Assembly (NCBI GenBank): GCA_916048095.2 | Contig: OU696588.1 | Coordinates: 7,897,790-7,961,789, forward strand | Length of the DNA: 64,000 bases | Reading direction: 5' to 3' | Source of the DNA: Sacculina carcini | Taxonomy: Eukaryota; Arthropoda; Thecostraca; Sacculinidae | Shown here: positions 1,021-58,941 of the stretch, one piece after another | Numbering within the stretch: position 1 is the stretch's first letter | Layout of the letters: the number at the start of each line of letters is the position of its first letter | Notes under the pieces: model-generated | What the model saw: the letters and a program-made list of their open reading frames with translations, nothing else | Told to the model about the DNA's origin: nothing | Databases searched by the model: none | Translations under genes and position numbers: made by a program

Positions 1021-2837
1021 CTTAAGGTCACCTTGGCTGATGCAATGCACACACCATGATACCGCGCTGACGTCTGCGCATGCGCAGAACATCAAACACA
1101 TTCCCCGCCAGTCTGGCGCCATCTCAGGGTAACCTTGGATGGCGCACAATCACGCACCGCGCACGTGATACCGCGCTGACGTCTGCGCATGCGCAGTTTG
1201 AACAAATCATTGTTATAGACATCTTCTACCATCCACCGTCTATTCACCCGTTTAAACACACTTGATAAATATTTTTCAAATTAATTTCATTATATTTTTA
1301 AATCAACTTGTTTTAACACAACTAATTATCATAACCTAATATAATAAACATTAATATACCCAATACGCGCGCCACAATTGTATCATGTGCATTTGTCTCA
1401 GAACTCTAAATTAATTTAGTTAGCATAACCAAATATAATAAACATTAATATATCTAATACGTGCGCCACAATTGTATCATGTGCGCCACAAGTGTCTCAC
1501 AATTCTATATATTAATTGTACACTCGTGCTTGCGCACTATATATACCACATATAAACCATCTCTCTTGAACATCTACAATGGCCGGACCGCGTAAGACTC
1601 TGCTCGAACCCCGAGGACCTCGGTTCGAATCCCAGCCAGGTAATAACTTTCTTCATTCAACACTAAACTCTACACTCAAATAATCGAAATAAATTGGATG
1701 AATTAAAGAAAATATAGAAAATAAAGAAAATAAAGAAAATAAAGAAAATAAAGAAAATAAAGAAAATGAAGAAAATAAAGAAAATAAAGAAAATAAAGAA
1801 AATAAAGAAAATAAAGAAAATAAAGAAAATAAAGAAAATAAAGAAAATAAAGAAAATAAAGAAAATAAAGAAAATAAAGAAAATAAAGAAAATAAAGAAA
1901 ATAAAGAAAATAAAGAAAATAAAGAAAATAAAGAAAATAAAGAAAATAAAGAAAATAAAGAAAATAAAAAAAATAAAAAAAATAAAAAAAATAAAGAAAA
2001 TAAAGAAAATAAAGAAAATAAAGAAAATAAAGAAAATAAAGAAAATAAAGAAAATAAAGAAAATAAAGAAAATAAAGAAAATAAAGAAAATAAAGAAAAT
2101 AAAGAAAATAAAGAAAATAAAGAAAATAAAGAAAACAAATAAAACAAATAAAACAAATAAAACAAATGAAACAAAAGAAACAAAAGAAACAAATAAAATA
2201 AATAAAATAAATAAAATAAAGAAAATAAAGAAAATAAATAAAATAAATAAAATAAATAAAATAATTAAAATAAATAAAATAAATAAAATAAATAAAATAA
2301 ATAAAATAAATAAAATAAATAAAATAAATAAAATAAATAAAATAAATAAAATAAATAAAATAAATAAAATAAATAAAATAAATAAAATAAATAAAATAAA
2401 TAAAATAAATAAAATAAATAAAATAAATAAAATAAATAAAATAAATAAAATAAATAAAATAAATAAAATAAATAAAATAAATAAAATAAATAAAATAAAG
2501 AAAATAAAGAAAATAAAGAAAATAAAGAAAATAAAGAAAATAAAGAAAATAAAGAAAATAAAGAAAATAAAGAAAATAAAGAAAATAAAGAAAATAAAGA
2601 AAAAAAAAAAAATAAAAAAAAAAAAAAAATAAAGAAAATAAAAAAAATAAAGAAAATAAAGAAAATAAAAAAAATAAAGAAAATAAAGAAAATAAAGAAA
2701 ATAAAGAAAATAAAGAAAATAAAGAAAATAAAGAAAATAAAGAAAATAAAGAAAATAAAGAAAATAAAGAAAATAAAGAAAATAAAGAAAATAAAGAAAA
2801 TAAAGAAAATAAAGAAAATAAAGAAAATAAAGAAAAT
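1021..2837 (+). repeat. Monomer 2 with strongly mosaic tail
   Basis: Core 1021-1705, starting CTTAAGG instead of CTCAAGG. Tail 1706-2837 (1132 bp) is a patchwork: AAAGAAAAT units, three AAATAAAAA units near 1968-1992, an ACAAAT-containing block near 2135-2200, a long AAATAAAAT block near 2190-2497, more AAAGAAAAT, and an A-rich irregular stretch near 2600-2660. Variant units occur in runs, which suggests local unit duplication. Confidence 0.95.
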
Positions 2838-4025
2838 CTCAAGGTCACCTTGGCTGATGCAATGCACACACCATGATACCGCGCTGACGTCTGCGCATGC
2901 GCAGTACATCAAACACATTCCCCGCCAGTCTGGCGCCATCTCAGGGTAACCTTGGATGGTGCACAATCACGCACCGCGCACGTGATACCGCGCTGACGTC
3001 TGCGCATGCGCATGCTGAACAAATCATTGTTATAGACATCTTCTAACATCCACCGTCTATTCACCCGTTTAAACACACTTGATAAATATTTTTCAAATTA
3101 ATTTCATTATATTTTTAAATCAACTTGTTTTAACACAACTAATTATCATAACCTAATATAATAAACATTTATATACCCAATACGCGCGCCACAATTGTAT
3201 CATGTGCATTTGTCTCAGAACTCTAAATTAATTTAGTTAGCATAACCAAATATAATAAACATTAATATATCTAATACGTGCGCCACAATTGTATCATGTG
3301 CGCCACAAGTGTCTCACAATTCTATATATTAATTGTACACTCGTGCTTGCGCACTATATATACCACATATAAACCATCTCTCTTGAACATCTACAATGGC
3401 CGGACCGCGTAAGACTCTGCTCGAACCCCGAGGACCTCGGTTCGAATCCCAGCCAGGTAATAACTTTCTTCACTCAACACTAAACTCTACACACAAATAA
3501 TCGAAATAAATTGGATGAATTAAAGAAAATAAAGAAAATAAAGAAAATGAAGAAAATAAAGAAAATAAAGAAAATAAAGAAAATAAAGAAAGTAAAGAAA
3601 ATAAAGAAAATAAAGAAAATAAAGAAAATAAAGAAAATAAAGAAAACAAAGAAAATAAAGAAAATAAAGAAAATAAAGAAAATAAAGAAAATAAAGAAAA
3701 TAAAGAAAATAAAGAAAATAAAGAAAATAAAGAAAATAAAGAAAATAAAGAAAATAAAGAAAATAAAGAAAATAAAGAAAATAAAGAAAATAAAGAAAAT
3801 AAAGAAAATAAAGAAAATAAAGAAAATAAAGAAAATAAAGAAAATAAAGAAAATAAAGAAAATTAAGAAAATTAAGAAAATTAAGAAAATTAAGAAAATT
3901 AAGAAAATTAAGAAAATAAAGAAAATAAAGAAAATAAAGATAATAAAGAAAATAAAGAAAATAAAGAAAATAAAGAAAATAAAGAAAATAAAGAAAATAA
4001 AGAAAATAAAGAAAATAAAGAAAAT
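2838..4025 (+). repeat. Monomer 3
   Basis: Core 2838-3522, tail 3523-4025 (503 bp). The second palindrome is altered (GCGCATGCGCATGCTGAAC). The core shares the rare variant AACATTTATATACC with the core at 52386-54621, fifty kilobases away, and carries CTAACATCC like the later subfamily. The tail contains a run of AATTAAGAA units near 3862-3915. Confidence 0.95.
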
Positions 4026-5402
4026 CTCAAGGTCACCTTGGCTGATGCAATGCACACACCATGATACCGCGCTGACGTCTGCGCATGCGCAGTACATCAA
4101 ACACATTCCCCGCCAGTCTGGCGCCATCTCAGGGTAACCTTGGATGGTGCACAATCACGCACCGCGCACGTGATACCGCGCTGACGTCTGCGCATGCGCA
4201 GTTTGAACAAATCATTGTTATAGACATCTTCTACCATCCACCGTCTATTCACCCGTTTAAACACACTTGATAAATATTTTTCAAATTAATTTCATTATAT
4301 TTTTAAATCAACTTGTTTTAACACAACTAATTATCATAACCTAATATAATAAACATTAATATACCCAATACGCGCGCCACAATTGTATCATGTGCATTTG
4401 TCTCAGAACTCTAAATTAATTTAGTTAGCATAACCAAATATAATAAACATTAATATATCTAATACGTGCGCCACAATTGTATCATGTGCGCCACAAGTGT
4501 CTCACAATTCTATATATTAATTGTACACTCGTGCTTGCGCACTATATATACCACATATAAACCATCTCTCTTGAACATCTACAATGGCCGGACCGCGTAA
4601 GACTCTGCTCGAACCCCGAGGACCTCGGTTCGAATCCCAGCCAGGTAATAACTTTCTTCACTCAACACTAAACTCTACACACAAATAATCGAAATAAATT
4701 GGATGAATTAAAGAAAATAAAGAAAATAAAGAAAATAAAGAAAATAAAGAAAATAAAGAAAATAAAGAAAATAAAGAAAATAAAGAAAATAAAGAAAATA
4801 AAGAAAATAAAGAAAATAAAGAAAATAAAGAAAATAAAGAAAATAAAGAAAATAAAGAAAATAAAGAAAATAAAGAAAATAAAGAAAATAAAGAAAATAA
4901 AGAAAATAAAGAAAATAAAGAAAATAAAGAAAATAAAGAAAATAAAGAAAATAAAGAAAATAAATAAAATAAATAAAATAAATAAAATAAATAAAATAAA
5001 TAAAACAAATAAAATAAAGAAAATAAAGAAAATAAATAAAATAAATAAAATAAATAAAATAAATAAAATAAATAAAATAAATAAAATAAATAAAATAAAT
5101 AAAATAAATAAAATAAATAAAATAAATAAAATAAATAAAATAAATAAAATAAATAAAATAAATAAAATAAATAAAATAAATAAAATAAATAAAATAAATA
5201 AAATAAATAAAATAAATAAAATAAATAAAATAAATAAAATAAATAAAATAAATAAAATAAATAAAATAAATAAAATAAATAAAATAAATAAAATAAATAA
5301 AATAAAGAAAATAAAGAAAATAAAGAAAATAAAGAAAATAAAGAAAATAAAGAAAATAAAGAAAATAAAGAAAATAAAGAAAATAAAGAAAATAAAGAAA
5401 AT
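4026..5402 (+). repeat. Monomer 4 with three-block tail
   Basis: Core 4026-4710. Tail 4711-5402 (692 bp) is AAAGAAAAT, then a long AAATAAAAT block (about 4963-5303, interrupted by two AAAGAAAAT units), then AAAGAAAAT again. The same block order recurs in tails 15592-16346 and 18653-19371, each of which also precedes an insert-type core. Confidence 0.95.
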
Positions 5403-5732
5403 CTCAAGGTCACCTTGGCTGATGCAATGCACACACCATGATACCGCGCTGACGTCTGCGCATGCGCAGTACATCAAACACATTCCCCGCCAGTCTGGCG
5501 CCATCTCAGGGTAACCTTGGATGGTGCACAATCACGCACCGCGCACGTGATACCGCGCTGACGTCTGCGCATGCGCAGTTTGAACAAATCATTGTTATAG
5601 ACATATTCTACCATCCACCGTCTATTCACCCGTTTAAACACACTTGATAAATATTTTTCAAATTAATTTCATTATATTTTTAAATCAACTTGTTTTAACA
5701 CAACTAATTATTATTATTCTTATTAATTACAG

Positions 5733-5849
5733 GCAAATCCAGTAGCATGGGAAGAGTGCAAGCACTATTACCACCCTAAGGTGGCCCCATGTACCGGAAG
5801 CGCCCAAAAGATTCAGAGAGAAAGAGAGTTCGAAGAGAAAAAAGTCTAG
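5733..5849 (+). other. Exon-like open segment after an acceptor-like ATTACAG, copy 1
   Basis: A TTA-rich stretch ending ATTACAG is followed by 38 codons open to TAG at 5847-5849. The translation begins ANPVAWEECKHYYHPKVAPC and ends in a charged stretch (KIQRERE, FEEKKV). It is richer in G+C, W, C, H and Y than its surroundings and looks like a captured last exon. I do not recognise the protein. It may be coincidence, because the same DNA read backwards would be the 3' untranslated region of the retrotransposon. Confidence 0.35.
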
Positions 5850-6120
5850 AAAGAGAGTTGGAAAGAAAATAATAAATAAATAACAATAAATAATAAACCA
5901 TCATCCGATAACAATCCATAATGTCACTCCGCCCACGTTCCTCAATAAATAATAACAATCAACAATAAATATGTGATTCATTAAAAAACAGCCATCAATA
6001 AATAAGAATAAATATTAATAAATATGTAATAAATAACAATCAAGACAATACATATGATTCAAAAAAGAAACATCCAACAATAAATATAAATATGATTCAA
6101 TAAGTAACAACAACACAAAT

Positions 6121-6360
6121 AAATATGATTCAATAAACAGCAGCAACAATAAATATGATTCAATAAACAACAACAACAATAAATATGATTCAATAAACAG
6201 CAACAACAATAAATATGATTCAATAAACAACAACAACAATAAATATGATTTAATAAACAGCAACAACAATAAATATGATACAATAAACAACAACAACAAT
6301 AAATATGACTCAATAAACAGCAACAACAATGAATATGATTCAATAAACAACAACAGCCAA
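6121..6360. repeat. 30-bp minisatellite, eight units, copy 1
   Basis: Eight units of AAATATGATTCAATAAACA followed by a CAR-rich end. Odd units tend to end GCARCAACAAT and even units ACAACAACAAT, so the true period is 60 bp. A decayed unit precedes it (6088-6120). The minus-strand frames rich in CCCC and LLLL are produced by this repeat. Confidence 0.9.
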
Positions 6361-6524
6361 CACTGAGTAAAAGTATAATTTAATAAATAACAACAACCAA
6401 TAATAAATAGTAATAAATAGAGAGTAAAATAGGAATAAATAAAAATAAATAGAAAATATATAACAATAAGCATGAATAAATAACAATAAATATGAATAAA
6501 TATACAATTAATAAGACTCAACAG

Positions 6525-6811
6525 TCAATTCCGCTCTTTCAGTAGCATTTCATTTACTTTGGCCTTGAATTTGTTCAAATTGTTCTGCGAGAAAGCCTCC
6601 TCCTTCAACGTGTTCCAAGTAGACACAGTGGCCGGAAGAAAGCAACGTTGGAATTGTTTTGTACGACAACGAATTGGAGCCATGCACTGGGAATGCTGTT
6701 TGGATGTAAACCGTGTGCTTCTTGCTGCCACGAAATCATCAGGAATTGACTTGCTCATCGGATGATGGTCGTTGTGCTTGATCTTGTACAGCATGCACAC
6801 GCTGCTGACCG
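6525..6811 (-). pseudogene. C-terminal fragment of a non-LTR retrotransposon ORF2, copy 1
   Basis: On the minus strand the frame reads MLYKIKHND, then FVAARSTRFTSKQHSQ, CRTKQFQRCFLPATVSTWN, NLNKFKAKVNEML and a stop at 6525. The order (ML-YKI, R-T-K-x-FQ-x-x-FLP-x-TV-x-x-WN, then a helical end) is the region after the reverse transcriptase domain in many animal Jockey/CR1/RTE-like elements. The RT and endonuclease domains are absent, so it cannot move itself. Upstream the frame runs into the tRNA-like block by chance. Confidence 0.65.
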
Positions 6812-7031
6812 ATATATACCACATATAAACCATCTCTCTTGAACATCTACAATGGCCGGACCGCGTAAGACTCTGCTCGAACCACGAGGACCTCGGTTCG
6901 AATCCCAGCCAGGTAATAACTTTCTTCACTCAACACTACACTCTACACACAAATAATCGAAATAAATTGGATGAATTAAAGAAAATAAAGAAAATAAAGA
7001 AAATAAAGAAAATAAAGAAAATAAAGAAAAT

Positions 7032-8399
7032 CTCAAGGTCACCTTGGCTGATGCAATGCACACACCATGATACCGCGCTGACGTCTGCGCATGCGCAGTA
7101 CATCAAACACATTCCCCGCCAGTCTGGCGCCATCTCAGGGTAACCTTGGATGGTGCACAATCACGCACCGCGCACGTGATACCGCGCTGACGTCTGCGCA
7201 TGCGCAGTTTGAACAAATCATTGTTATAGACATCTTCTACCATCCACCGTCTATTCACCCGTTTAAACACACTTGATAAATATTTTTCAAATTAATTTCA
7301 TTATATTTTTAAATCAACTTGTTTTAACACAACTAATTATCATAACCTAATATAATAAACATTAATATACCCAATACGCGCGCCACAATTGTATCATGTG
7401 CATTTGTCTCAGAACTCTAAATTAATTTAGTTAGCATAACCAAATATAATAAACATTAATATATCTAATACGTGCGCCACAATTGTATCATGTGCGCCAC
7501 AAGTGTCTCACAATTCTATATATTAATTGTACACTCGTGCTTGCGCACTATATATACCACATATAAACCATCTCTCTTGAACATCTACAATGGCCGGACC
7601 GCGTAAGACTCTGCTCGAACCCCGAGGACCTCGGTTCGAATCCCAGCCAGGTAATAACTTTCTTCACTCAACACTAAACTCTACACACAAATAATCGAAA
7701 TAAATTGGATGAATTAAAGAAAATAAAGAACATAAAGAAAATTAAGAAAATTAAGAAAATTAAGAAAATTAAGAAAATAAAGAAAATAAAGAAAATAAAG
7801 AAAATAAAGAAAATAAAGAAAATAAAGAAAATAAAGAAAATAAAGAAAATAAAGAAAATAAAGAAAATAAAGAAAATAAAGAAAATAAAGAAAATAAAGA
7901 AAATAAAGAAAATAAAGAAAATAAAGAAAATAAAGAAAATAAAGAAAATAAAGAAAATAAAGAAAATAAAGAAAATAAAGAAAATAAAGAAAATAAAGAA
8001 AATAAAGAAAATAAAGAAAATAAAGAAAATAAAGAAAATAAAGAAAATAAAGAAAATAAAGAAAATAAAGAAAATAAAGAAAATAAAGAAAATAAAGAAA
8101 ATAAAGAAAATAAAGAAAATAAAGAAAATAAAGAAAATAAAGAAAATAAAGAAAATAAAGAAAATAAAGAAAATAAAGAAAATAAAGAAAATAAAGAAAA
8201 TAAAGAAAATAAAGAAAATAAAGAAAATAAAGAAAATAAAGAAAATAAAGAAAATAAAGAAAATAAAGAAAATAAAGAAAATAAAGAAAATAAAGAAAAT
8301 AAAGAAAATAAAGAAAATAAAGAAAATAAAGAAAATAAAGAAAATAAAGAAAATAAAGAAAATAAAGAAAATAAAGAAAATAAAGAAAATAAAGAAAAT
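7032..8399 (+). repeat. Monomer 6
   Basis: Core 7032-7716, tail 7717-8399 (683 bp). The tail opens with a CATAAAG unit and four AATTAAG units and is then pure AAAGAAAAT. The next tail opens almost the same way, so the two monomers appear to be duplicates. Confidence 0.95.
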
Positions 8400-16346: not shown

Positions 16347-16676
16347 CTCAAGGTCACCTTGGCTGATGCAATGCACACACCATGATACCGCGCTGACGTC
16401 TGCGCATGCGCAGTACATCAAACACATTCCCCGCCAGTCTGGCGCCATCTCAGGGTAACCTTGGATGGTGCACAATCACGCACCGCGCACGTGATACCGC
16501 GCTGACGTCTGCGCATGCGCAGTTTGAACAAATCATTGTTATAGACATCTTCTACCATCCACCGTCTATTCACCCGTTTAAACACACTTGATAAATATTT
16601 TTCAAATTAATTTCATTATATTTTTTAATCAACTTGTTTTAACACAACTAATTATTATTATTATTATTAATTACAG

Positions 16677-16793
16677 GCAAATCCAGTAGCATGGGAAGAG
16701 TGCAAGCACTATTACCACCCTAAGGTGGCCCCATGTACCGGAAGCGCCCAAAAGATTCAGAGAGAAAGAGAGTTCGAAGAGAAAAAAGTCTAG
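16677..16793 (+). other. Exon-like open segment, copy 2
   Basis: Same 38-codon segment with its TAG at 16791-16793 and ATTACAG directly before it. I see no changes relative to copy 1. Confidence 0.35.
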
Positions 16794-17065
16794 AAAGAGA
16801 GTTGGAAAGAAAATAATAAATAAATAACAATAAATAATAAACCATCATCCGATAACAATCCATAATGTCACTCCGCCCACGTTCCTCAATAAATAAAAGC
16901 AATCAACAATAAATATGTGATTCATTAAAAAACAGCCATCAATAAATAAGAATAAATATTAATAAATAAGTAATAAATAACAATCAAGAACAATACATAT
17001 GATTAAAAAAAGAAACATCCAACAATAAATATAAATATGATTCAATAAGTAACAACAACACAAAT

Positions 17066-17305
17066 AAATATGATTCAATAAACAGCAGCAACAATAAATA
17101 TGATTCAATAAACAACAACAACAATAAATATGATTCAATAAACAGCAACAACAATAAATATGATTCAATAAACAACAACAACAATAAATATGATTTAATA
17201 AACAGCAACAACAATAAATATGATACAATAAACAACAACAACAATAAATATGACTCAATAAACAGCAGCAACAATGAATATGATTCAATAAACAACAACA
17301 GCCAG
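17066..17305. repeat. 30-bp minisatellite, copy 2
   Basis: Eight units with the same alternation as at 6121; the seventh unit has CAGCAGCAAC. Confidence 0.9.
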
Positions 17306-17469
17306 CACTGAGTAAAAGTATAATTTAATAAATAACAACAACCAATAATAAATAGTAATAAATAGAGAGTAAAATAGGAATAAATAAAAATAAATAGAAA
17401 ATATATAACAATAAACATGAATAAATAACAATAAATATGAATAAATATACAATTAATAAGACTCAACAG

Positions 17470-17756
17470 TCAATTCCGCTCTTTCAGTAGCATTTCATTT
17501 ACTTTGGCCTTGAATTTGTTCAAATTGTTCTGCGAGAAAGCCTCCTCCTTCAACGTGTTCCAAGTAGACACAGTGGCCGGAAGAAAGCAACGTTGGAATT
17601 GTTTTGTACGACAACGAATTGGAGCCATGCACTGGGAATGCTGTTTGGATGTAAACCGTGTGCTTCTTGCTGCCACGAAATCATCAGGAATTGACTTGCT
17701 CATCGGATGATGGTCGTTGTGCTTGATCTTGTACAGCATGCACACGCTGCTGACCG
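17470..17756 (-). pseudogene. Retrotransposon ORF2 tail fragment, copy 2
   Basis: Same 3' coding fragment as at 6525, with the FLPATVSTWN motif intact and the stop at 17470. The coding part has not visibly decayed between copies, in line with recent array duplication, not selection. Confidence 0.65.
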
Positions 17757-17967
17757 ATATATACCACATATAAACCATCTCTCTTGAACATCTACAATGG
17801 CCGGACCGCGTAAGACTCTGCTCGAACAACGAGGACCTCGGTTCGAATCCCAGCCAGGTAATAACTTTCTTCACTCAACACTAAACTCTACACACAAATA
17901 ATCGAAATAAATTGGATGAATTAAAGAAAATAAAGAAAATAAAGAAAATAAAGAAAATAAAGAAAAT

Positions 17968-17983
17968 CTCAAGGTCACCTTGG
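17968..17983. promoter_or_regulatory. Core-edge palindrome CAAGGTCACCTTG
   Basis: At core offset 2-15 the sequence TCAAGGTCACCTTGG is two inverted arms CAAGGT/ACCTTG around one base. TCAAGGTCA is the extended half-site bound by NR5A/ERR-type nuclear receptors in animals. That is established for the motif; any use here is inference. It sits exactly at the junction of tail and core in every monomer. Confidence 0.5.
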
Positions 17984-17984
17984 C

Positions 17985-17993
17985 TGATGCAAT
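17985..17993 (+). promoter_or_regulatory. TGATGCAAT motif (C/EBP-ATF type)
   Basis: TGATGCAAT at core offset 18-26 is an exact match to the C/EBP-ATF composite element of animal stress genes. It is present in the other cores I compared. Binding is not shown by sequence alone. Confidence 0.35.
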
Positions 17994-18004
17994 GCACACA
18001 CCAT

Positions 18005-18035
18005 GATACCGCGCTGACGTCTGCGCATGCGCAGT
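18005..18035 (+). repeat. 31-bp direct repeat, copy 1 (CRE-like plus NRF1-like palindrome)
   Basis: Offsets 38-68. The element contains TGACGTCT, one base from a full CRE, and the 14-bp palindrome CTGCGCATGCGCAG, which matches the NRF1 consensus YGCGCAYGCGCR on both strands. Copy 2 lies 109 bp downstream and is identical in this monomer. Copy 1 is intact in nearly all cores and is the site where the hAT element inserted at 52447 and 55321. Confidence 0.9.
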
Positions 18036-18108
18036 ACATCAAACACATTCCCCGCCAGTCTGGCGCCATCTCAGGGTAACCTTGGATGGTGCACAATCAC
18101 GCACCGCG

Positions 18109-18114
18109 CACGTG
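18109..18114. promoter_or_regulatory. CACGTG E-box
   Basis: Offsets 142-147, immediately before the second 31-bp repeat, in the context CGCACGTGATAC. Together with the CRE-like, NRF1-like and TGATGCAAT motifs it makes offsets 1-180 resemble an animal CpG-type promoter. Function is inferred from motif content only. Confidence 0.35.
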
Positions 18115-18144
18115 ATACCGCGCTGACGTCTGCGCATGCGCAGT
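18114..18144 (+). repeat. 31-bp direct repeat, copy 2
   Basis: Offsets 147-177, identical to copy 1 here. In ten cores between 30340 and 52385 it reads GACGTCGGCGCATGCGCAG, which removes the outer pair of the palindrome. In the core at 2838 it reads GCGCATGCGCATGC. Confidence 0.9.
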
Positions 18145-18218
18145 TTGAACAAATCATTGTTATAGACATCTTCTACCATCCACCGTCTATTCACCCGTTT
18201 AAACACACTTGATAAATA

Positions 18219-18223
18219 TTTTT
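18219..18223 (+). terminator. T5 run, candidate Pol III terminator
   Basis: TATTTTTC at offset 252-256 is the first T4-or-longer run on the plus strand downstream of the tRNA-like block of the previous monomer, because the AAAGAAAAT tail and the first 250 bp of the core have none. If the block is transcribed by Pol III, the RNA would end here. Confidence 0.3.
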
Positions 18224-18279
18224 CAAATTAATTTCATTATATTTTTAAATCAACTTGTTTTAACACAACTAATTATCAT

Positions 18280-18337
18280 AACCTAATATAATAAACATTA
18301 ATATACCCAATACGCGCGCCACAATTGTATCATGTGC
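18280..18337 (+). repeat. 58-bp imperfect direct repeat, copy 1
   Basis: Offsets 313-370, from AACCTAATATAATAAAC to ATTGTATCATGTGC. It differs from copy 2 at about four of 58 positions. The pair lies inside the 209-bp segment that is replaced in insert-type cores. Confidence 0.9.
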
Positions 18338-18373
18338 ATTTGTCTCAGAACTCTAAATTAATTTAGTTAGCAT

Positions 18374-18431
18374 AACCAAATATAATAAACATTAATATAT
18401 CTAATACGTGCGCCACAATTGTATCATGTGC
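18374..18431 (+). repeat. 58-bp imperfect direct repeat, copy 2
   Basis: Offsets 407-464, from AACCAAATATAATAAAC to ATTGTATCATGTGC, followed by a further GCGCCACAAGTGTCTCACAA. The duplication is older than the array, because both versions are conserved in all standard cores. Confidence 0.9.
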
Positions 18432-18484
18432 GCCACAAGTGTCTCACAATTCTATATATTAATTGTACACTCGTGCTTGCGCAC

Positions 18485-18492
18485 TATATATA
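18485..18492 (+). promoter_or_regulatory. TATATATA box
   Basis: Offsets 518-525, 34 bp upstream of the A-box-like sequence. It is kept in insert-type cores because the insert ends exactly at ATATATACC. The spacing suits either a Pol III unit with an upstream TATA or a short Pol II unit; the sequence does not decide. Confidence 0.45.
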
Positions 18493-18525
18493 CCACATAT
18501 AAACCATCTCTCTTGAACATCTACA

Positions 18526-18630
18526 ATGGCCGGACCGCGTAAGACTCTGCTCGAACCCCGAGGACCTCGGTTCGAATCCCAGCCAGGTAATAACTTTCTT
18601 CACTCAACACTAAACTCTACACACAAATAA
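18526..18630 (+). other. Small open frame overlapping the tRNA-like block
   Basis: ATG in good context (ACAATGG) opens a 34-codon frame beginning MAGPRKTLLE and ending at TAA (18628-18630), with a donor-like CCAGGTAATAAC inside it. The frame is the tRNA-like sequence read as codons and is lost in the inverted core at 62870-63554 (ACAGTGG). I see no evidence that it is translated; it is recorded because it recurs in most monomers downstream of a TATA box. Confidence 0.2.
18527..18585 (+). other. tRNA-like block (SINE head): A-box-like sequence and perfect B box
   Basis: TGGCCGGACCGCG followed by TAAGACTCTG (offset 560 on) resembles the A box and D arm of tRNA-Leu/Ser, which read TGGCCGAG... 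and TAAGG. GGTTCGAATCC (18569-18579) matches the B-box consensus exactly. The A-to-B spacing suits Pol III. It is not a working tRNA: the conserved GG of the D loop is missing and no complete cloverleaf forms, though CGAACC/GGTTCG and GAGG/CCTC make a hairpin. It is followed by about 70 AT-rich bases and the simple tail, the order seen in tRNA-derived SINEs. It recurs at offset 560-618 of every standard core, and the insert-type cores keep it. Confidence 0.7.
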
Positions 18631-18652
18631 TCGAAATAAATTGGATGAATTA

Positions 18653-19371
18653 AAGAAAATAAAGAAAATAAAGAAAATAAAGAAAATAAAGAAAATAAAG
18701 AAAATAAAGAAAATAAAGAAAATAAAGAAAATAAAGAAAATAAAGAAAATAAAGAAAATAAAGAAAATAAAGAAAATAAAGAAAATAAAGAAAATAAAGA
18801 AAATAAAGAAAATAAAGAAAATAAAGAAAATAAAGAAAATAAAGAAAATAAAGAAAATAAAGAAAATAAAGAAAATAAAGAAAATAAAGAAAATAAAGAA
18901 AATAAAGAAAATAAAGAAAATAAAGAAAATAAATAAAATAAATAAAATAAATAAAATAAATAAAATAAAGAAAATAAATAAAATATATAAAATAAATAAA
19001 ATAAATAAAATAAATAAAATAAATAAAATAAATAAAACAAATAAAATAAAGAAAATAAAGAAAATAAATAAAATAATTAAAATAAATAAAATAAATAAAA
19101 TAAATAAAATAAATAAAATAAATAAAATAAATAAAATAAATAAAATAAATAAAATAAATAAAATAAATAAAATAAATAAAATAAATAAAATAAAGAAAAT
19201 AAAGAAAATAAAGAAAATAAAGAAAATAAAGAAAATAAAGAAAATAAAGAAAATAAAGAAAATAAAGAAAATAAAGAAAATAAAGAAAATAAAGAAAATG
19301 AAGAAAATAAAGAAAATAAAGAAAATAAAGAAAATAAAGAAAATAAAGAAAATAAAGAAAATAAAGAAAAT
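18653..19371 (+). repeat. 9-bp tail of the reference monomer
   Basis: 719 bp. About 30 AAAGAAAAT units are followed by AAATAAAAT units with single ATATAAAAT, ACAAATAAA and AATTAAAAT variants, then AAAGAAAAT again with one AAAATGAAG unit. The length equals 9n+8, as in most tails of the array. Confidence 0.95.
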
Positions 19372-19701
19372 CTCAAGGTCACCTTGGCTGATGCAATGCA
19401 CACACCATGATACCGCGCTGACGTCTGCGCATGCGCAGTACATCAAACACATTCCCCGCCAGTCTGGCGCCATCTCAGGGTAACCTTGGATGGTGCACAA
19501 TCACGCACCGCGCACGTGATACCGCGCTGACGTCTGCGCATGCGCAGTTTGAACAAATCATTGTTATAGACATCTTCTACCATCCACCGTCTATTCACCC
19601 GTTTAAACACACTTGATAAATATTTTTCAAATTAATTTCATTATATTTTTTAATCAACTTGTTTTAACACAACTAATTATTATTATTATTATTAATTACA
19701 G

Positions 19702-19818
19702 GCAAATCCAGTAGCATGGGAAGAGTGCAAGCACTATTACCACCCTAAGGTGGCCCCATGTACCGGAAGCGCCCAAAAGATTCAGAGAGAAAGAGAGTTC
19801 GAAGAGAAAAAAGTCTAG
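19702..19818 (+). other. Exon-like open segment, copy 3
   Basis: Same segment, TAG at 19816-19818. Confidence 0.35.
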
Positions 19819-20090
19819 AAAGAGAGTTGGAAAGAAAATAATAAATAAATAACAATAAATAATAAACCATCATCCGATAACAATCCATAATGTCACTCCG
19901 CCCACGTTCCTCAATAAATAATAACAATCAACAATAAATATGTGATTCATTAAAAAACAGCCATCAATAAATAAGAATAAATATTAATAAATAAGTAATA
20001 AATAACAATCAAGAACAATACATATGATTAAAAAAAGAAACATCCAACAATAAATATAAATATGATTCAATAAGTAACAACAACACAAAT

Positions 20091-20330
20091 AAATATGATT
20101 CAATAAACAGCAGCAACAATAAATATGATTCAATAAACAACAACAACAATAAATATGATTCAATAAACAGCAACAACAATAAATATGATTCAATAAACAA
20201 CAACAACAATAAATATGATTTAATAAACAGCAACAACAATAAATATGATACAATAAACAACAACAACAATAAATATGACTCAATAAACAGCAGCAACAAT
20301 GAATATGATTCAATAAACAACAACAGCCAG
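20091..20330. repeat. 30-bp minisatellite, copy 3
   Basis: Eight units, same unit order as at 17066. Confidence 0.9.
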
Positions 20331-20494
20331 CACTGAGTAAAAGTATAATTTAATAAATAACAACAACCAATAATAAATAGTAATAAATAGAGAGTAAAAT
20401 AGGAATAAATAAAAATAAATAGAAAATATATAACAATAAACATGAATAAATAACAATAAATATGAATAAATATACAATTAATAAGACTCAACAG

Positions 20495-20781
20495 TCAATT
20501 CCGCTCTTTCAGTAGCATTTCATTTACTTTGGCCTTGAATTTGTTCAAATTGTTCTGCGAGAAAGCCTCCTCCTTCAACGTGTTCCAAGTAGACACAGTG
20601 GCCGGAAGAAAGCAACGTTGGAATTGTTTTGTACGACAACGAATTGGAGCCATGCACTGGGAATGCTGTTTGGATGTAAACCGTGTGCTTCTTGCTGCCA
20701 CGAAATCATCAGGAATTGACTTGCTCATCGGATGATGGTCGTTGTGCTTGATCTTGTACAGCATGCACACGCTGCTGACCG
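20495..20781 (-). pseudogene. Retrotransposon ORF2 tail fragment, copy 3
   Basis: Same fragment as at 17470, with no difference that I can see in the translated part. Confidence 0.65.
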
Positions 20782-20992
20782 ATATATACCACATATAAAC
20801 CATCTCTCTTGAACATCTACAATGGCCGGACCGCGTAAGACTCTGCTCGAACAACGAGGACCTCGGTTCGAATCCCAGCCAGGTAATAACTTTCTTCACT
20901 CAACACTAAACTCTACACACAAATAATCGAAATAAATTGGATGAATTAAAGAAAATAAAGAAAATAAAGAAAATAAAGAAAATAAAGAAAAT

Positions 20993-22363: not shown

Positions 22364-22693
22364 CTCAAGGTCACCTTGGCTGATGCAATGCACACACCAT
22401 GATACCGCGCTGACGTCTGCGCATGCGCAGTACATCAAACACATTCCCCGCCAGTCTGGCGCCATCTCAGGGTAACCTTGGATGGTGCACAATCACGCAC
22501 CGCGCACGTGATACCGCGCTGACGTCTGCGCATGCGCAGTTTGAACAAATCATTGTTATAGACATCTTCTACCATCCACCGTCTATTCACCCGTTTAAAC
22601 ACACTTGATAAATATTTTTCAAATTAATTTCATTATATTTTTTAATCAACTTGTTTTAACACAACTAATTATTATTATTATTATTAATTACAG

Positions 22694-22810
22694 GCAAATC
22701 CAGTAGCATGGGAAGAGTGCAAGCACTATTACCACCCTAAGGTGGCCCCATGTACCGGAAGCGCCCAAAAGATTCAGAGAGAAAGAGAGTTCGAAGAGAA
22801 AAAAGTCTAG
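22694..22810 (+). other. Exon-like open segment, copy 4
   Basis: Same segment, TAG at 22808-22810. Confidence 0.35.
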
Positions 22811-23082
22811 AAAGAGAGTTGGAAAGAAAATAATAAATAAATAACAATAAATAATAAACCATCATCCGATAACAATCCATAATGTCACTCCGCCCACGTT
22901 CCTCAATAAATAATAACAATCAACAATAAATATGTGATTCATTAAAAAACAGCCATCAATAAATAAGAATAAATATTAATAAATAAGTAATAAATAACAA
23001 TCAAGAACAATACATATGATTAAAAAAAGAAACATCCAACAATAAATATAAATATGATTCAATAAGTAACAACAACACAAAT

Positions 23083-23322
23083 AAATATGATTCAATAAAC
23101 AGCAGCAACAATAAATATGATTCAATAAACAACAACAACAATAAATATGATTCAATAAACAGCAACAACAATAAATATGATTCAATAAACAACAACAACA
23201 ATAAATATGATTTAATAAACAGCAACAACAATAAATATGATACAATAAACAACAACAACAATAAATATGACTCAATAAACAGCAGCAACAATGAATATGA
23301 TTCAATAAACAACAACAGCCAA
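23083..23322. repeat. 30-bp minisatellite, copy 4
   Basis: Eight units; the last ends CAGCCAACACTG, as in copies 1 and 5. Confidence 0.9.
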
Positions 23323-23486
23323 CACTGAGTAAAAGTATAATTTAATAAATAACAACAACCAATAATAAATAGTAATAAATAGAGAGTAAAATAGGAATAA
23401 ATAAAAATAAATAGAAAATATATAACAATAAGCATGAATAAATAACAATAAATATGAATAAATATACAATTAATAAGACTCAACAG

Positions 23487-23773
23487 TCAATTCCGCTCTT
23501 TCAGTAGCATTTCATTTACTTTGGCCTTGAATTTGTTCAAATTGTTCTGCGAGAAAGCCTCCTCCTTCAACGTGTTCCAAGTAGACACAGTGGCCGGAAG
23601 AAAGCAACGTTGGAATTGTTTTGTACGACAACGAATTGGAGCCATGCACTGGGAATGCTGTTTGGATGTAAACCGTGTGCTTCTTGCTGCCACGAAATCA
23701 TCAGGAATTGACTTGCTCATCGGATGATGGTCGTTGTGCTTGATCTTGTACAGCATGCACACGCTGCTGACCG
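23487..23773 (-). pseudogene. Retrotransposon ORF2 tail fragment, copy 4
   Basis: Same fragment, stop at 23487. The ARSTRFTSKQ and FLPATVSTWN motifs are intact. Confidence 0.65.
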
Positions 23774-23975
23774 ATATATACCACATATAAACCATCTCTC
23801 TTGAACATCTACAATGGCCGGACCGCGTAAGACTCTGCTCGAACAACGAGGACCTCGGTTCGAATCCCAGCCAGGTAATAACTTTCTTCACTCAACACTA
23901 AACTCTACACACAAATAATCGAAATAAATTGGATGAATTAAAGAAAATAAAGAAAATAAAGAAAATAAAGAAAAT

Positions 23976-25379: not shown

Positions 25380-25709
25380 CTCAAGGTCACCTTGGCTGAT
25401 GCAATGCACACACCATGATACCGCGCTGACGTCTGCGCATGCGCAGTACATCAAACACATTCCCCGCCAGTCTGGCGCCATCTCAGGGTAACCTTGGATG
25501 GTGCACAATCACGCACCGCGCACGTGATACCGCGCTGACGTCTGCGCATGCGCAGTTTGAACAAATCATTGTTATAGACATCTTCTACCATCCACCGTCT
25601 ATTCACCCGTTTAAACACACTTGATAAATATTTTTCAAATTAATTTCATTATATTTTTAAATCAACTTGTTTTAACACAACTAATTATTATTATTATTAT
25701 TAATTACAG

Positions 25710-25826
25710 GCAAATCCAGTAGCATGGGAAGAGTGCAAGCACTATTACCACCCTAAGGTGGCCCCATGTACCGGAAGCGCCCAAAAGATTCAGAGAGAAA
25801 GAGAGTTCGAAGAGAAAAAAGTCTAG
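25710..25826 (+). other. Exon-like open segment, copy 5
   Basis: Same segment, TAG at 25824-25826. Confidence 0.35.
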
Positions 25827-26098
25827 AAAGAGAGTTGGAAAGAAAATAATAAATAAATAACAATAAATAATAAACCATCATCCGATAACAATCCATAATG
25901 TCACTCCGCCCACGTTCCTCAATAAATAATAACAATCAACAATAAATATGTGATTCATTAAAAAACAGCCATCAATAAATAAGAATAAATATTAATAAAT
26001 AAGTAATAAATAACAATCAAGAACAATACATATGATTCAAAAAAGAAACATCCAACAATAAATATAAATATGATTCAATAAGTAACAACAACACAAAT

Positions 26099-26338
26099 AA
26101 ATATGATTCAATAAACAGCAGCAACAATAAATATGATTCAATAAACAACAACAACAATAAATATGATTCAATAAACAGCAACAACAATAAATATGATTCA
26201 ATAAACAACAACAACAATAAATATGATTTAATAAACAGCAACAACAATAAATATGATACAATAAACAACAACAACAATAAATATGACTCAATAAACAGCA
26301 GCAACAATTAATATGATTCAATAAACAACAACAGCCAA
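26099..26338. repeat. 30-bp minisatellite, copy 5
   Basis: Eight units; the final unit opens TTAATATGATTC instead of TGAATATGATTC. The unit number is the same in all five copies, unlike the 9-bp tails. Confidence 0.9.
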
Positions 26339-26502
26339 CACTGAGTAAAAGTATAATTTAATAAATAACAACAACCAATAATAAATAGTAATAAATAGAG
26401 AGTAAAATAGGAATAAATAAAAATAAATAGAAAATATATAACAATAAGCATGAATAAATAACAATAAATATGAATAAATATACAATTAATAAGACTCAAC
26501 AG

Positions 26503-26789
26503 TCAATTCCGCTCTTTCAGTAGCATTTCATTTACTTTGACCTTGAATTTGTTCAAATTGTTCTGCGAGAAAGCCTCCTCCTTCAACGTGTTCCAAGTAG
26601 ACACAGTGGCCGGAAGAAAGCAACGTTGGAATTGTTTTGTACGACAACGAATTGGAGCCATGCACTGGGAATGCTGTTTGGATGTAAACCGTGTGCTTCT
26701 TGCTGCCACGAAATCATCAGGAATTGACTTGCTCATCGGATGATGGTCGTTGTGCTTGATCTTGTACAGCATGCACACGCTGCTGACCG
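26503..26789 (-). pseudogene. Retrotransposon ORF2 tail fragment, copy 5
   Basis: Same fragment with one substitution near the end (KFKVKVNEM instead of KFKAKVNEM). Confidence 0.65.
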
Positions 26790-26991
26790 ATATATACCAC
26801 ATATAAACCATCTCTCTTGAACATCTACAATGGCCGGACCGCGTAAGACTCTGCTCGAACCACGAGGACCTCGGTTCGAATCCCAGCCAGGTAATAACTT
26901 TCTTCACTCAACACTAAACTCTACACACAAATAATCGAAATAAATTGGATGAATTAAAGAAAATAAAGAAAATAAAGAAAATAAAGAAAAT

Positions 26992-52385: not shown

Positions 52386-52546
52386 CTCAAGGTCACCTTG
52401 GCTGATGCAATGCACACACCATGATACCGCGCTGACGTCTGCGCATTAGGGCTGGGCAGGAACCGGTTCCGGAACCGGCTCTGACGGTTCTGCTACGTGG
52501 ATATTGGAACCGGGTCCGAGACTCAGAACCGGTTCTGGAACCGGGT

Positions 52547-52738
52547 CCACGCGGATCCGAGTCCACACGGTTCCGATTCTCGGACCCGGGTCCACACGGA
52601 TCCGAGTCCACACGGTTCCGATTCTCGGACCCGGGTCCACACGGATCCGAGTCCACACGGTTCCGATTCTTGGACCCGGGTCCACACGGATCCGAGTCCA
52701 CACGGTTCCGATTCTCGGACCCGGGTCCACACGGATCT
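52547..52738. repeat. 45-bp minisatellite in hAT copy 1, four units
   Basis: Four full units (52547-52726) of CCACACGGATCCGAGTCCAC, then ACGGTTCCGATTCTCGGACC and CGGGT, and a partial unit. The unit holds palindromes such as GGACCCGGGTCC and resembles the GGAACCGGTTCC motifs at the element ends, so it may be an amplified subterminal motif. All frames stay open because 45 is a multiple of 3. Confidence 0.92.
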
Positions 52739-52745
52739 TAGTATC

Positions 52746-53890
52746 AGGACTGACAGGAAAATGTATGCGCATTGCGCACACACTACATGAACACTACGGT
52801 GCGTTTTAGAATTACGCTAATATGAAATTGCGGTGAATGCTGTTTTTCACGTTTATTTAAAAATGCGTATTATATTGTCTTCTTTTTTCTGAAATACATG
52901 TACATTATTTGCAAGTAAGTCTGTGCGCGCAGAGCCATATTACACGAGGTATAATACTAAATTTAATATATATTATTTATTACGCTGATTTTATTGAGTA
53001 TACTATTAATATATTATTTTTTGGCGTATGATTACCGGAATTTGATTAAATAACCGCATTTTCAGCTAATTTGAGCGAAAAAGTATCGCATGAATGTTGA
53101 TACAACATTTTTCTAAATCTGCGTGAAAACTGCATCCTTTCCATGGTGACTTCAATTACAATTCAACAATCAAACAAACAAACAACAATAATTTTAAAAT
53201 CAAAGGCAGCAAATTAAACGCTACACGATCGCAATTTCACTACAAAATGGATGTTTCAACTTGACTTCAGGAGAAGGTTTTCTCATTGAATCCAATAAAA
53301 TATACATTTTCGGAATCAGCATGAAAAATGTATCTACCGCAACTTTGTACTCGTTAAACTTTTGGAAAAGTAAAGAATCCACACATTCTAATGCACACAA
53401 GCATACATGACCAAAGCTGTGATCACGGCACATCGATCACATTTGACGTGTCGCCCACAAAGAATGTGAAAACCCATACAGGTGTGAACCAGGCGAGAAA
53501 GATGCCTGCTAAGTTTGTTTGTATCGAACGAAATGTGCCTGAATTTCCTGGATGGAAGTCAGATTGTGTGAACATTGATGAATCCTGTCATATTTGTGTG
53601 GAAATATGTTTGTAAATGTGTTTGTGTTGTTTGTTTGAGTTATATGCCTCACTCACCCAAAAAAACAAAATGAGGATCCCCCACAAAAATGAAATTTATG
53701 AAATGTTGAATTTAATTTTGTGAGAATACCCACTATAATGAAACTGATAGAACTTTGACTTTGAATAAAATTTTGAATTTATATAAACATTTGTTATTTT
53801 CCCAGTCACACGTTCATCTATGCCAACTCTCTTTTGTGTCTTCTCCCTTTGGGTGATCTCTAAACATGCGCACAGAAAATATATTTTTTC
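52746..53890. other. Interior of hAT copy 1, no recognised gene
   Basis: AT-rich sequence. A 74-codon frame at 53391-53615 (plus) and a 70-codon frame at 53221-53433 (minus) overlap one another. The minus frame is shifted in the second element by one extra A near 56288. I recognise no domain. It may be decayed cargo or old transposon sequence. Confidence 0.5.
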
Positions 53891-55420
53891 ATCCAAGCGG
53901 AACCGGTTCCGGAACCGGTTCCAACGGTTCCACTGCCCTACGGATCCGGAACCGTGAGTATCAATTTTCACGGTTCCTGCCCAGCCCTACTGCGCATGCG
54001 CAGTACATCAAACACATTCCCCGCCAGTCTGGCGCCATCTCAGGGTAACCTTGGATGGTGCACAATCACGCACCGCGCACGTGATACCGCGCTGACGTCT
54101 GCGCATGCGCAGTTTGAACAAATCATTGTTATAGACATCTTCTAACATCCACCGTCTATTCACCCGTTTAAACACACTTGATAAATATTTTTCAAATTAA
54201 TTTCATTATATTTTTAAATCAACTTGTTTTAACACAACTAATTATCATAACCTAATATAATAAACATTTATATACCCAATACGCGCGCCACAATTGTATC
54301 ATGTGCATTTGTCTCAGAACTCTAAATTAATTTAGTTAGCATAACCAAATATAATAAACATTAATATATCTAATACGTGCGCCACAATTGTATCATGTGC
54401 GCCACAAGTGTCTCACAATTCTATATATTAATTGTACCCTCGTGCTTGCGCACTATATATACCACATATAAACCATCTCTCTTGAACATCCACAATGGCC
54501 GGACCGCGTAAGACTCTGCTCGAACCCCGAGGACCTCGGTTCGAATCCCAGCCAGGTAATAACTTTCTTCACTCAACACTAAACTCTACACACAAATAAT
54601 CGAAATAAATTGGATGAATTAAAGAAAATAAAGAAAATAAAGAAAATAAAGAAAATAAAGAAAATAAAGAAAATAAAGAAAATAAAGAAAATAAAGAAAA
54701 TAAAGAAAATAAAGAAAATAAAGAAAATAAAGAAAATAAAGAAAATAAAGAAAATAAAGAAAATAAAGAAAATAAAGAAAATAAAGAAAATAAAGAAAAT
54801 AAAGAAAATAAAGAAAATAAAGAAAATAAAGAAAATAAAGAAAATAAAGAAAATAAAGAAAATAAAGAAAATAAAGAAAATAAAGAAAATAAAGAAAATA
54901 AAGAAAATAAAGAAAATAAAGAAAATAAAGAAAATAAAGAAAATAAAGAAAATAAAGAAAATAAAGAAAATAAAGAAAATAAAGAAAATAAAGAAAATAA
55001 AGAAAATAAAGAAAATAAAGAAAATAAAGAAAATAAAGAAAATAAAGAAAATAAAGAAAATAAAGAAAATAAAGAAAATAAAGAAAATAAAGAAAATAAA
55101 GAAAATAAAGAAAATAAAGAAAATAAAGAAAATAAAGAAAATAAAGAAAATAAAGAAAATAAAGAAAATAAAGAAAATAAAGAAAATAAAGAAAATAAAG
55201 AAAATAAAGAAAATAAAGAAAATAAAGAAAATAAAGAAAATAAAGAAAATAAAGAAAATCTCAAGGTCACCTTGGCTGATGCAATGCACACACCATGATA
55301 CCGCGCTGACGTCTGCGCATTAGGGCTGGGCAGGAACCGGTTCCGGAACCGGCTCTGACGGTTCTGCTACGTGGATATTGGAACCGGGTCCGAGACTCAG
55401 AACCGGTTCTGGAACCGGGT

Positions 55421-55702
55421 CCACGCGGATCCGAGTCCACACGGTTCCGATTCTCGGATCCGAGTCCACACGGATCCGAGTCCACACGGTTCCGATTCTT
55501 GGACCCGGGTCCACACGGATCCGAGTCCACACGGTTCCGATTCTCGGACCCGGGTCCACACGGATCCGAGTCCACACGGTTCCGATTCTCGGACCCGGGT
55601 CCACACGGATCCGAGTCCACACGGTTCCGATTCTTGGACCCGGGTCCACACGGATCCGTGTCCACACGGTTCCGATTCTCGGACCCGGGTCCACACGGAT
55701 CT
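55421..55702. repeat. 45-bp minisatellite in hAT copy 2, six units
   Basis: Six full units (55421-55690) plus a partial. The first unit reads CTCGGATCCGAGT instead of CTCGGACCCGGGT, and the last has GGATCCGTGTCC. Confidence 0.92.
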
Positions 55703-55709
55703 TAGTATC

Positions 55710-56860
55710 AGGACTGACAGGAAAATGTATGCGCATTGCGCACACACTACATGAACACTACGGTGCGTTTTAGAATTAACGCTAATATGAAATTGCGGTG
55801 AATGCAGTTTTTCACGTTTATTTAAAAATGCGTATTATATTGTCTTCTTTTTTCTGAAATACATGTACATTATTTGCAAGTAAGTCTGTGCGCGCAGAGC
55901 CATATTACACGAGGTATAATACTAAATTTAATATATATTATTTATTACGCTGATTTTATTGAGTATACTATTAATATATTATTTTTTGGCGTATGATTAC
56001 CGGAATTTGATTAAATAACCGCATTTTCAGCTAATTTGAGCGAAAAAGTATCGCATGAATGTTGATACAACATTTTTCTAAATCTGCGTGAAAACTGCAT
56101 CCTTTCCATGGTGACTTCAATTACAATTCAACAATCAAACAAACAAACAACAATAATTTTAAAATCAAAGGCAGCAAATTAAACGCTACACGATCGCAAT
56201 TTCACTACAAAATGGATGTTTCAACTTGACTTCAGGAGAAGGTTTTCTCATTGAATCCAATAAAATATACATTTTCGGAATCAGCATGAAAAAATGTATC
56301 TACCGCAACTTTGTACTCGTTAAACTTTTGGAAAAGTAAAGAATCCACACATTCTAATGCACACAAGCATACATGACCAAAGCTGTGATCACGGCACATC
56401 GATCACATTTGACGTGTCGCCCACAAATAATGTGAAAACCCATACAGGTGTGAACCAGGCGAGAAAGATGCCTGCTAAGTTTGTTTGTATCGAACGAAAT
56501 GTGCGTGAAAATCCTGGATGGAAGTCAGATTGTGTGAACATTGATGAATCCTGTCATATTTGTGTGGAAATATGTTTGTAAATGTGTTTGTGTTGTTTGT
56601 TTGAGTTATATGCCTCACTCACCCAAAAAAACAAAATGAGGATCCCCCACAAAAATGAAATTTATGAAATGTTGAATTTAATTTTGTGAGAATACCCACT
56701 ATAATGAAACTGATAGAACTTTGACTTTGAATAAAATTTTGAATTTATATAAACATTTGTTATTTTCCCAGTCACACGTTCATCTATGCCAACTCTCTTT
56801 TGTGTCTTCTCCCTTTGGGTGATCTCTAAACATGCGCACAGAAAATATATTTTTTCATCC
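55710..56860. other. Interior of hAT copy 2, no recognised gene
   Basis: Matches 52746-53890 with scattered substitutions, for example GTGCGTGAAAATCC near 56500 versus GTGCCTGAATTTCC near 53535, and AATAATGTG versus AAGAATGTG. Confidence 0.5.
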
Positions 56861-58941
56861 AAGCGGAACCGGTTCCGGAACCGGTTCCAACGGTTCCACT
56901 GCCCTACGGATCCGGAACCGTGAGTATCAATTTTCACGGTTCCTGCCCAGCCCTACTGCGCATGCGCAGTACATCAAACACATTCCCCGCCAGTCTGGCG
57001 CCATCTCAGGGTAAACTTGGATGGTGCACAATCACGCACCGCGCACGTGATACCGCGCTGACGTCTGCGCATGCGCAGTTTGAACAAATCATTGTTATAG
57101 ACATCTTCTAACATCCACCGTCTATTCACCCGTTTAAACACACTTGATAAATATTTTTCAAATTAATTTCATTATATTTTTAAATCAACTTGTTTTAACA
57201 CAACTAATTAGCATAACATAATATAATAAACATTAATATACCCAATACGCGCGCCACAATTGTATCATGTGCATTTGTCTCAGAACTCTAAATTAATTTA
57301 GTTAGCATAACCAAATATAATAAACATTAATATATCTAATACGTGCGCCACAATTGTATCATGTGCGCCACAAGTGTCTCACAATTCTATATATTAATTG
57401 TACCCTCGTGCTTGCGCACTATATATACCACATATAAACCATCTCTCTTGAACATCTACAATGGCCGGACCGCGTAAGACTCTGCTCGAACCCCGAGGAC
57501 CTCGGTTCGAATCCCAGCCAGGTAATAACTTTCTTCACTCAACACTAAACTCTACACACAAATAATCGAAATAAATTGGATGAATTAAAGAAAATAAAGA
57601 AAATAAAGAAAATAAAGAAAATAAAGAAAATAAAGAAAATAAAGAAAATAAAGAAAATAAAGAAAATAAAGAAAATCAAGAAAATCAAGAAAATCAAGAA
57701 AATCAAGAAAATCAAGAAAATCAAGAAAATAAAGAAAATAAAGAAAATAAAGAAAATAAAGAAAATAAAGAAAATAAAGAAAATAAAGAAAATAAAGAAA
57801 ATAAAGAAAATAAAGAAAATAAAGAAAATAAAGAAAATAAAGAAAATAAAGAAAATAAAGAAAATAAAGAAAATAAAGAAAATAAAGAAAATAAAGAAAA
57901 TAAATAAAATAAATAAAATAAATAAAATAAAAAAAATAAAAAAAATAAAAAAAATAAAAAAAATAAATAAAATAAATAAAATAAAAAAAATAAAAAAAAT
58001 AAAAAAAATACATAAAATACATAAAATACATAAAATAAATGAAATAAATAAAATAAATAAAATAAATAAAATAAATAAAAAAAATAAAATAAATAAAATA
58101 AATAAAATAAATAAAATAAAATAAAGAAAATAAAGAAAATAAAGAAAATAAAGAAAATAAAGAAAATAAAGAAAATAAAGAAAATAAAGAAAATAAAGAA
58201 AATAAAGAAAATAAAGAAAATAAAGAAAATAAAGAAAATAAAGAAAATAAAGAAAATAAAGAAAATAAAGAAAATAAAGAAAATAAAGAAAATAAAGAAA
58301 ATAAAGAAAATAAAGAAAATAAAGAAAATAAAGAAAATAAAGAAAATAAAGAAAATAAAGAAAATAAAGAAAATAAAGAAAATAAAGAAAATAAAGAAAA
58401 TAAAGAAAATAAAGAAAATAAAGAAAATAAAGAAAATAAAGAAAATAAAGAAAATAAAGAAAATAAAGAAAATAAAGAAAATAAAGAAAATAAAGAAAAT
58501 AAAGAAAATAAAGAAAATAAAGAAAATAAAGAAAATAAAGAAAATAAAGAAAATAAAGAAAATAAAGAAAATAAAGAAAATAAAGAAAATAAAGAAAATA
58601 AAGAAAATAAAGAAAATAAAGAAAATAAAGAAAATAAAGAAAATAAATAAAATAAATAAAATAAATAAAATAAATAAAATAAATAAAATAAATAAAATAA
58701 ATAAAATAAATAAAATAAATAAAATAAATAAAATAAATAAAATAAATAAAATAAATAAAATACATAAAATACATAAAATAAATAAAATAAATAAAATAAA
58801 TAAAATAAATAAAATAAATAAAATAAATAAAATAAATAAAATAAAGAAAATAAATAAAATAAAGAAAATAAAGAAAATAAAGAAAATAAAGAAAATAAAG
58901 AAAATAAAGAAAATAAAGAAAATAAAGAAAATAAAGAAAAT

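Follow-up and report, generated by a model that had tools for sequence, protein, structure and literature searches.

A satellite of Sacculina carcini very probably amplified from the terminal inverted repeat of a Polinton/Maverick-like transposon

The final 64 kb of C23, a contig of a 264-Mb, 43-contig assembly, were analysed as a whole and are called the window below; they consist of a satellite array whose monomers carry a SINE-like unit followed by a 9-bp minisatellite. The question raised by this locus is where such a monomer comes from. The initial annotation proposed the tandem capture of a tRNA-derived SINE. We report here that all fetched dispersed copies of the unit lie in the terminal inverted repeat (TIR) of a DNA transposon, and that the satellite is very probably a tandemly amplified piece of this TIR.

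The monomer at 17968-19371 contains, as first described, TATATATA, an A-box-like word, an exact B box, an AT-rich stretch and a 9-bp tail in this order, and the "about 70" AT-rich bases were measured as 72. The features, in window coordinates, are as follows.

1-64000, strand not assigned: array of long-form monomers, with an orientation flip near 60480
17968-19371, plus strand: long-form satellite monomer, 684-bp core and 80-unit tail
17968-18651, plus strand: core, 684 bp
17968-18457, plus strand: core offsets 1-490, inner TIR sequence not found in the short form; TGCGCATGCGCAGT-type repeats, then two ~90-bp TIR subrepeats
18458-18651, plus strand: core offsets 491-684, conserved TIR block with the SINE-like unit; this block and the tail alone make up the short-form monomer
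18485-18492, plus strand: TATATATA
18527-18537, plus strand: A-box-like word TGGCCGGACCG, one position off the consensus TRGYNNANNNG
18569-18579, plus strand: exact B box GGTTCGAATCC
18580-18651, plus strand: 72 AT-rich bases between the B box and the tail, common to the TIR
18652-19371, plus strand: 9-bp minisatellite tail, 720 bp or 80 unit lengths
16347-17967, plus strand: variant monomer with a short tail, in which a ~1.1-kb insert replaces the mid core and the unit starts at TATATACC (17758)

The distance from A-box start to B-box start in the monomer at 17968-19371 is 42 bp, and its tail, composed of AAAGAAAAT with stretches of AAATAAAAT, occupies the place of the A-rich run of the TIR. 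Across the window, 38 exact B boxes were found (37 on the plus strand, 1 on the minus strand). The 36 tails measured range from 3.9 to 221.4 units with a median of 77, and AAAGAAAAT accounts for 2,308 of 3,054 phase-read tail units. The array turns head-to-head at 60446-60501, and this flip breaks the B box of one unit. Besides the variant monomer listed, four others with the ~1.1-kb insert end at 7031, 20992, 23975 and 26991; the B boxes of the five are located at 6895, 17840, 20865, 23857 and 26873. The claim that each monomer ends a 685-bp core with the block is thus right for 17968-19371 (684 bp), but not for these five copies, nor for the commonest genomic form, which has no offsets 1-490. 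The insert itself (5726-6812, 16670-17757, 19695-20782, 22687-23774 and 25703-26790) carries (TTA)n on its left edge and gave no significant Pfam match (best E 0.24); its appearance suggests a minus-strand LINE truncated at the 5' end, "LINE-like" being an impression. Two copies of another insert, at 52447-53989 and 55321-56955, have the ends TAGGGCTGGGC / GCCCAGCCCTA, an 8-bp duplication CTGCGCAT and an internal 45-bp tandem repeat, and are presumably hAT-like. At the start of both C23 (L069 1-240) and C43 (L077) there is a tandem repeat of ACACTTAGGGCACACTTAGGTA type, degenerate and telomere-like.

With up to 3 mismatches allowed, a word of 28 bases spanning the B box is found at 2,913 places in the 264-Mb genome, and its reversed control at none. 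Outside the arrays these places form inverted pairs. A word taken from the dispersed version of the unit was found at 648 places with at most 1 mismatch, 42 of them exact. Among the matches listed, at least 10 inverted pairs are spaced by 15.3-16.3 kb, and in one of these pairs one member carries 1 mismatch. Of the 42 exact copies we fetched the first 30, together with a minority of the copies with 1-3 mismatches. Inner TIR homology is present in 30/30 of these exact copies and outer homology in 29/30, which speaks against the proposed tandem capture of a SINE; L033, which is cut, is the only one of them without the outer part, and the outer match within locus L054 comes from a copy next to it, whereas the outer part of L054 itself lies in L102. 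In these 29 loci the unit is followed by outer TIR sequence, and its 3' end is not a simple tail. Dispersed copies with flanking target duplications had been predicted: the copies exist, but no duplications were found around the unit itself, and those present flank the whole element. The unit also occurs in L104 (C18:3832800-3833400) with a mutated B box and outer TIR sequence. Here the upstream sequence is foreign and terminates with a hairpin and with CTAG preceding T, presumably a Helitron-like 3' end; we read it as an insertion at that site. At C19:2129568-2130603 (L054/L055), one element has inserted into the subrepeats of the TIR of another.

The element at C1:5185932-5203387 is ~17.4 kb long with TIRs of ~1.6 kb that are 98% alike. 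Pfam analysis of its 10 proteins, the one element on which the coding content rests, revealed DNA_pol_B_2 (2.2e-47), an integrase core (2.5e-13), Pox_A32 (2e-7) and an adenovirus-type protease (1.4e-6), and 6 of the 10 proteins had no Pfam match. Two ORFs of 445 and 506 aa are capsid candidates without a Pfam match. The outer TIR end is a sharp terminus starting with AGTAGT. A genome search with the terminus word detected 38 ends, including 11 inverted plus/minus pairs 9.0-23.2 kb apart, 7 of which are spaced 17.06-17.54 kb. Among the five pairs readable at both ends, three are flanked by matching 5-bp duplications, one is ambiguous (TA repeat) and one has no match; none of these pairs showed the 6-bp duplication typical of Polinton/Maverick. 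A family-B polymerase, an integrase, an A32-type ATPase and an adenovirus-type protease between long AGTAGT-ended TIRs are the features of a Polinton/Maverick, and since the duplications are of 5 bp and not 6 bp, the element is named Polinton/Maverick-like.

The 684-bp core is colinear with this TIR and keeps its order with fewer ~90-bp subrepeats. Offsets 1-186 match 25/30 TIR loci (best 89%), offsets 187-490 match 30/30 (best 92%) and offsets 491-684 match 30/30 (best 94.8%). Offsets 491-684 are also 98-100% identical to the short arrays on C1 and C7, which consist of these offsets and the tail only, and so the conserved module begins near offset 491 and not at 555, where the unit had been placed. 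The junction of the short form is the commonest, with 2,133 occurrences in the genome, all without offsets 1-490. The block therefore occurs outside the full 685-bp core, as it does outside the satellite, and on both points the initial annotation stands. The junction of the long form, with the whole core, was found 82 times, all at C23:7836052-7961349. Satellite clusters are present on C1, C3, C7, C19, C23 and C29; the C29 stretch is of the short form and the C19 stretch is satellite-type. Since no exact short-form junction on C2 was found among the matches listed, the satellite is not on every chromosome. Two rare-variant patterns have one genomic place each.

The arrays run head to tail, and their monomer is homologous to part of a transposon, as in a TE-derived satellite. 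The satellite groups differ from one another at few positions. In a tree of the units, the TIRs cluster together and the satellite units formally do not, as the rooting is disturbed by a single rearranged copy. The C7 array is bordered by another short-period satellite (CAAAAACGTCAAAATTGACCGAAATCGG...; L071 5301-5475), which was also seen at the start of C32 (L076). The C1 array contains a satellite-free stretch (L072 ~2059-7100) that starts within a tail and has a gag-like reading frame by eye.

The A-box-like sequence noticed at first is present but off the consensus in 45/45 C23 units and in 27/27 C1 units, in each case by one position. It is exact in 14/15 C7 units and in 32/32 TIR entries (30 distinct copies), a count that is partly selection, as most TIRs were fetched by a word covering 9 of the 11 A-box positions. 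As the exact A box is found on C7 but not on C1 or C23, the C7 array does not descend from the present long form of C23. The B box is exact in 27/30 distinct TIR copies, and exact A and B boxes at tRNA-like spacing are present in the TIR and the C7 array. In first-order Markov simulations of the 2,090-bp stretch holding the TIR, the exact A+B arrangement appeared in 1/4,000 and the B box in 21/4,000 sequences, so the boxes are probably meaningful. The block from -60 to +120 has a mean pairwise identity of 0.93-1.00 compared with 0.90-0.94 just upstream (21 TIRs, partly selected). We suggest that in the TIR the boxes would most likely serve as a type 2 promoter for Pol III or as a site bound by TFIIIC.

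A full tRNA gene was considered and rejected: ARAGORN (bacterial settings) detected no tRNA gene in the window, Rfam gave no tRNA match at E ≤ 10, and there is no cloverleaf or special fold (fold z-scores 0.04, -0.11 and -0.28). When 20 of the 51 listed tRNA genes of the same genome were compared, the nearest was Arg-TCT. Its similarity score was reached by 4-5 of 500 shuffles in which the B box was kept; with the B box made neutral it was reached by 70/500 (TIR) and 52/500 (satellite). By this comparison, tRNA ancestry outside the B box is at most weakly suggested.

Capture of a free SINE in tandem with later expansion of its tail would agree with the order of boxes and A-rich tail, with the tRNA-like spacing of the A and B boxes, which chance would rarely produce, and with an Arg-TCT score that just 4 of 500 shuffles reached when the B box was kept. 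Nevertheless, all 30 fetched dispersed copies run on into TIR sequence, TIR sequence also makes up the rest of the satellite core, and Rfam offers no tRNA. The surrounding 28-base word at TATATATA is about as frequent genome-wide (2,930 places, up to 3 mismatches) as the B-box word, and since these totals, compared as such and not copy by copy, are similar, there is no surplus of units that start near a Pol III start. Rejected on the context of the fetched dispersed copies, nearly all with TIR on both sides, a free SINE is a highly improbable source. An old SINE or tRNA gene that inserted into the TIR and was retained as part of it, the satellite arising later from the TIR, would explain the boxes and their spacing, the A-rich run that follows the block as in a SINE, and the weak tRNA-Arg similarity. 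Against it, the similarity becomes common among shuffles once the B box is neutral, no cloverleaf is formed, and no unit-free TIR that would show an empty site was found; three ends that lack the unit have in common just ~34 terminal bases and are therefore uninformative about insertion. We regard such an insertion as unlikely.

Similarity between satellite and TIR gives no direction by itself, and the transposon could have acquired a pre-existing satellite into its TIR. However, the TIR copies sit between inner and outer TIR sequence at many sites with their own termini, the long form contains inner TIR sequence, and the satellite groups lie only a few positions apart, with the TIR-like exact A box kept in C7 (14/15 units); a satellite-first order is hardly credible. 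That the boxes are a coincidence of hairpin-like sequence with no Pol III role is a serious possibility, although we lean against it. Part of the B box lies within an inverted repeat (…TCGAACCCCGAGGACCTCGGTTCGA…), in 37 window copies the unit strand lacks a T run over the next 359-2,317 bases, and the A box has been lost in the C1 and C23 satellites; the rarity of the box pair in simulated sequences, the B box kept exact in most TIR copies and the higher identity of the block, in partly selected TIRs, speak for a role. The preferred reading remains a satellite amplified from the TIR, with boxes that belonged to the TIR.

In the TIR, an A-rich run comes after the TATA/A-box/B-box block, at the place where the satellite has its tail. 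This run is variable (identity 0.59-0.77), the outer subrepeat region is still more variable, and short 9-mer arrays are found in several TIRs. In one TIR on C19, the unit is followed by 1,409 bp, or ~156 nine-base unit lengths, mostly of AAATAAAAT, and beyond this expansion come a ~0.86-kb insert, more of the run, the outer TIR and the terminus. Because the expansion lies inside a TIR with its outer part and terminus, the tail can expand within a single TIR without tandem units. Expansion of the tail, as first suggested, is therefore upheld, but the run that expanded is not the end of a SINE and lies inside the TIR. The expanded C19 tail is made of AAATAAAAT instead of AAAGAAAAT and follows a unit with a mutated B box, so this TIR illustrates the process and is not the direct ancestor. 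No TIR with a AAAGAAAAT tail was found (two consecutive AAAGAAAAT units in 0/30 loci), and an intermediate tail pattern occurs at 5 places, both inspected ones being satellite copies. Most likely, an unstable A-rich stretch in the TIR grew into the long 9-base repeat.

We propose that the A-rich run inside the TIR would expand into a 9-base tail first. In both tandem forms the tail (…AAAAT) is joined to upstream TIR sequence, and this join may have used 2-4 shared bases, namely AAAT/AT before TAATTG in the short form and AT before CTCAAGG in the long form. The join would yield a unit-plus-tail repeat, which could then be spread through unequal exchange, slippage or a rolling-circle route; exchange was probably promoted by the expanded, A-rich tail. 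Later the tail would have mutated mostly to AAAGAAAAT while its length continued to change.

With these data the guess of a SINE gives way to a traceable pathway, whose stages (ordinary TIR, TIR with expanded internal minisatellite, short tandem unit and long tandem unit) coexist in this genome. With its A and B boxes, the TIR allows a direct test of Pol III/TFIIIC sites at element ends. It is conceivable, though we consider it quite unlikely, that the end of a virus-like giant transposon became a satellite of chromosome scale, heterochromatic and perhaps pericentromeric, owing to two features already present in the TIR, a Pol III/TFIIIC-binding box pair (as boundary or transcript) and an expansion-prone A-rich run. 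The lack of an exact short-form junction on C2 among the matches listed speaks against it.

Satellites derived from TIRs and from SINEs are already known. In Drosophila virilis, satellite arrays arose from within the TIRs of the DNA transposon Tetris (TIR-220), and the likeness to our case is a satellite built from TIR sequence (PMC4079207). Tetris is a nonautonomous foldback element with 220-bp tandem repeats already present in its TIRs (PMC4079207), whereas the present satellite has a Polinton/Maverick-like source, a monomer of unit plus expanded 9-bp minisatellite, and A and B boxes. Xenopus Satellite 1 and the salamander Hy/Pol III repeats are SINE-related satellites that are likewise tandem repeats with Pol III-type boxes; they are ascribed to SINE-like elements, while the dispersed copies examined here are DNA-transposon TIRs (PMC6947457). 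The literature searches yielded no account of a satellite derived from a Polinton/Maverick TIR. The nearest printed precedent met is a one-line oyster annotation, CgiSat52 of Crassostrea gigas (1656 bp, DNA/Polinton), alike as a satellite with a Polinton annotation; its table line mentions neither a TIR origin nor boxes nor a minisatellite tail (PMC8268682). For the source element, the closest likeness is with the vertebrate Mavericks, which are 12.7-24.6 kb long with long TIRs, (AGT)2 and (ACT)2 ends, pPolB, ATPase, protease and integrase (PMC8097293). Their size range and AGTAGT ends agree with the present element, and they differ from it in having 6-bp target duplications, compared with 5 bp in the readable pairs here (PMC8097293).
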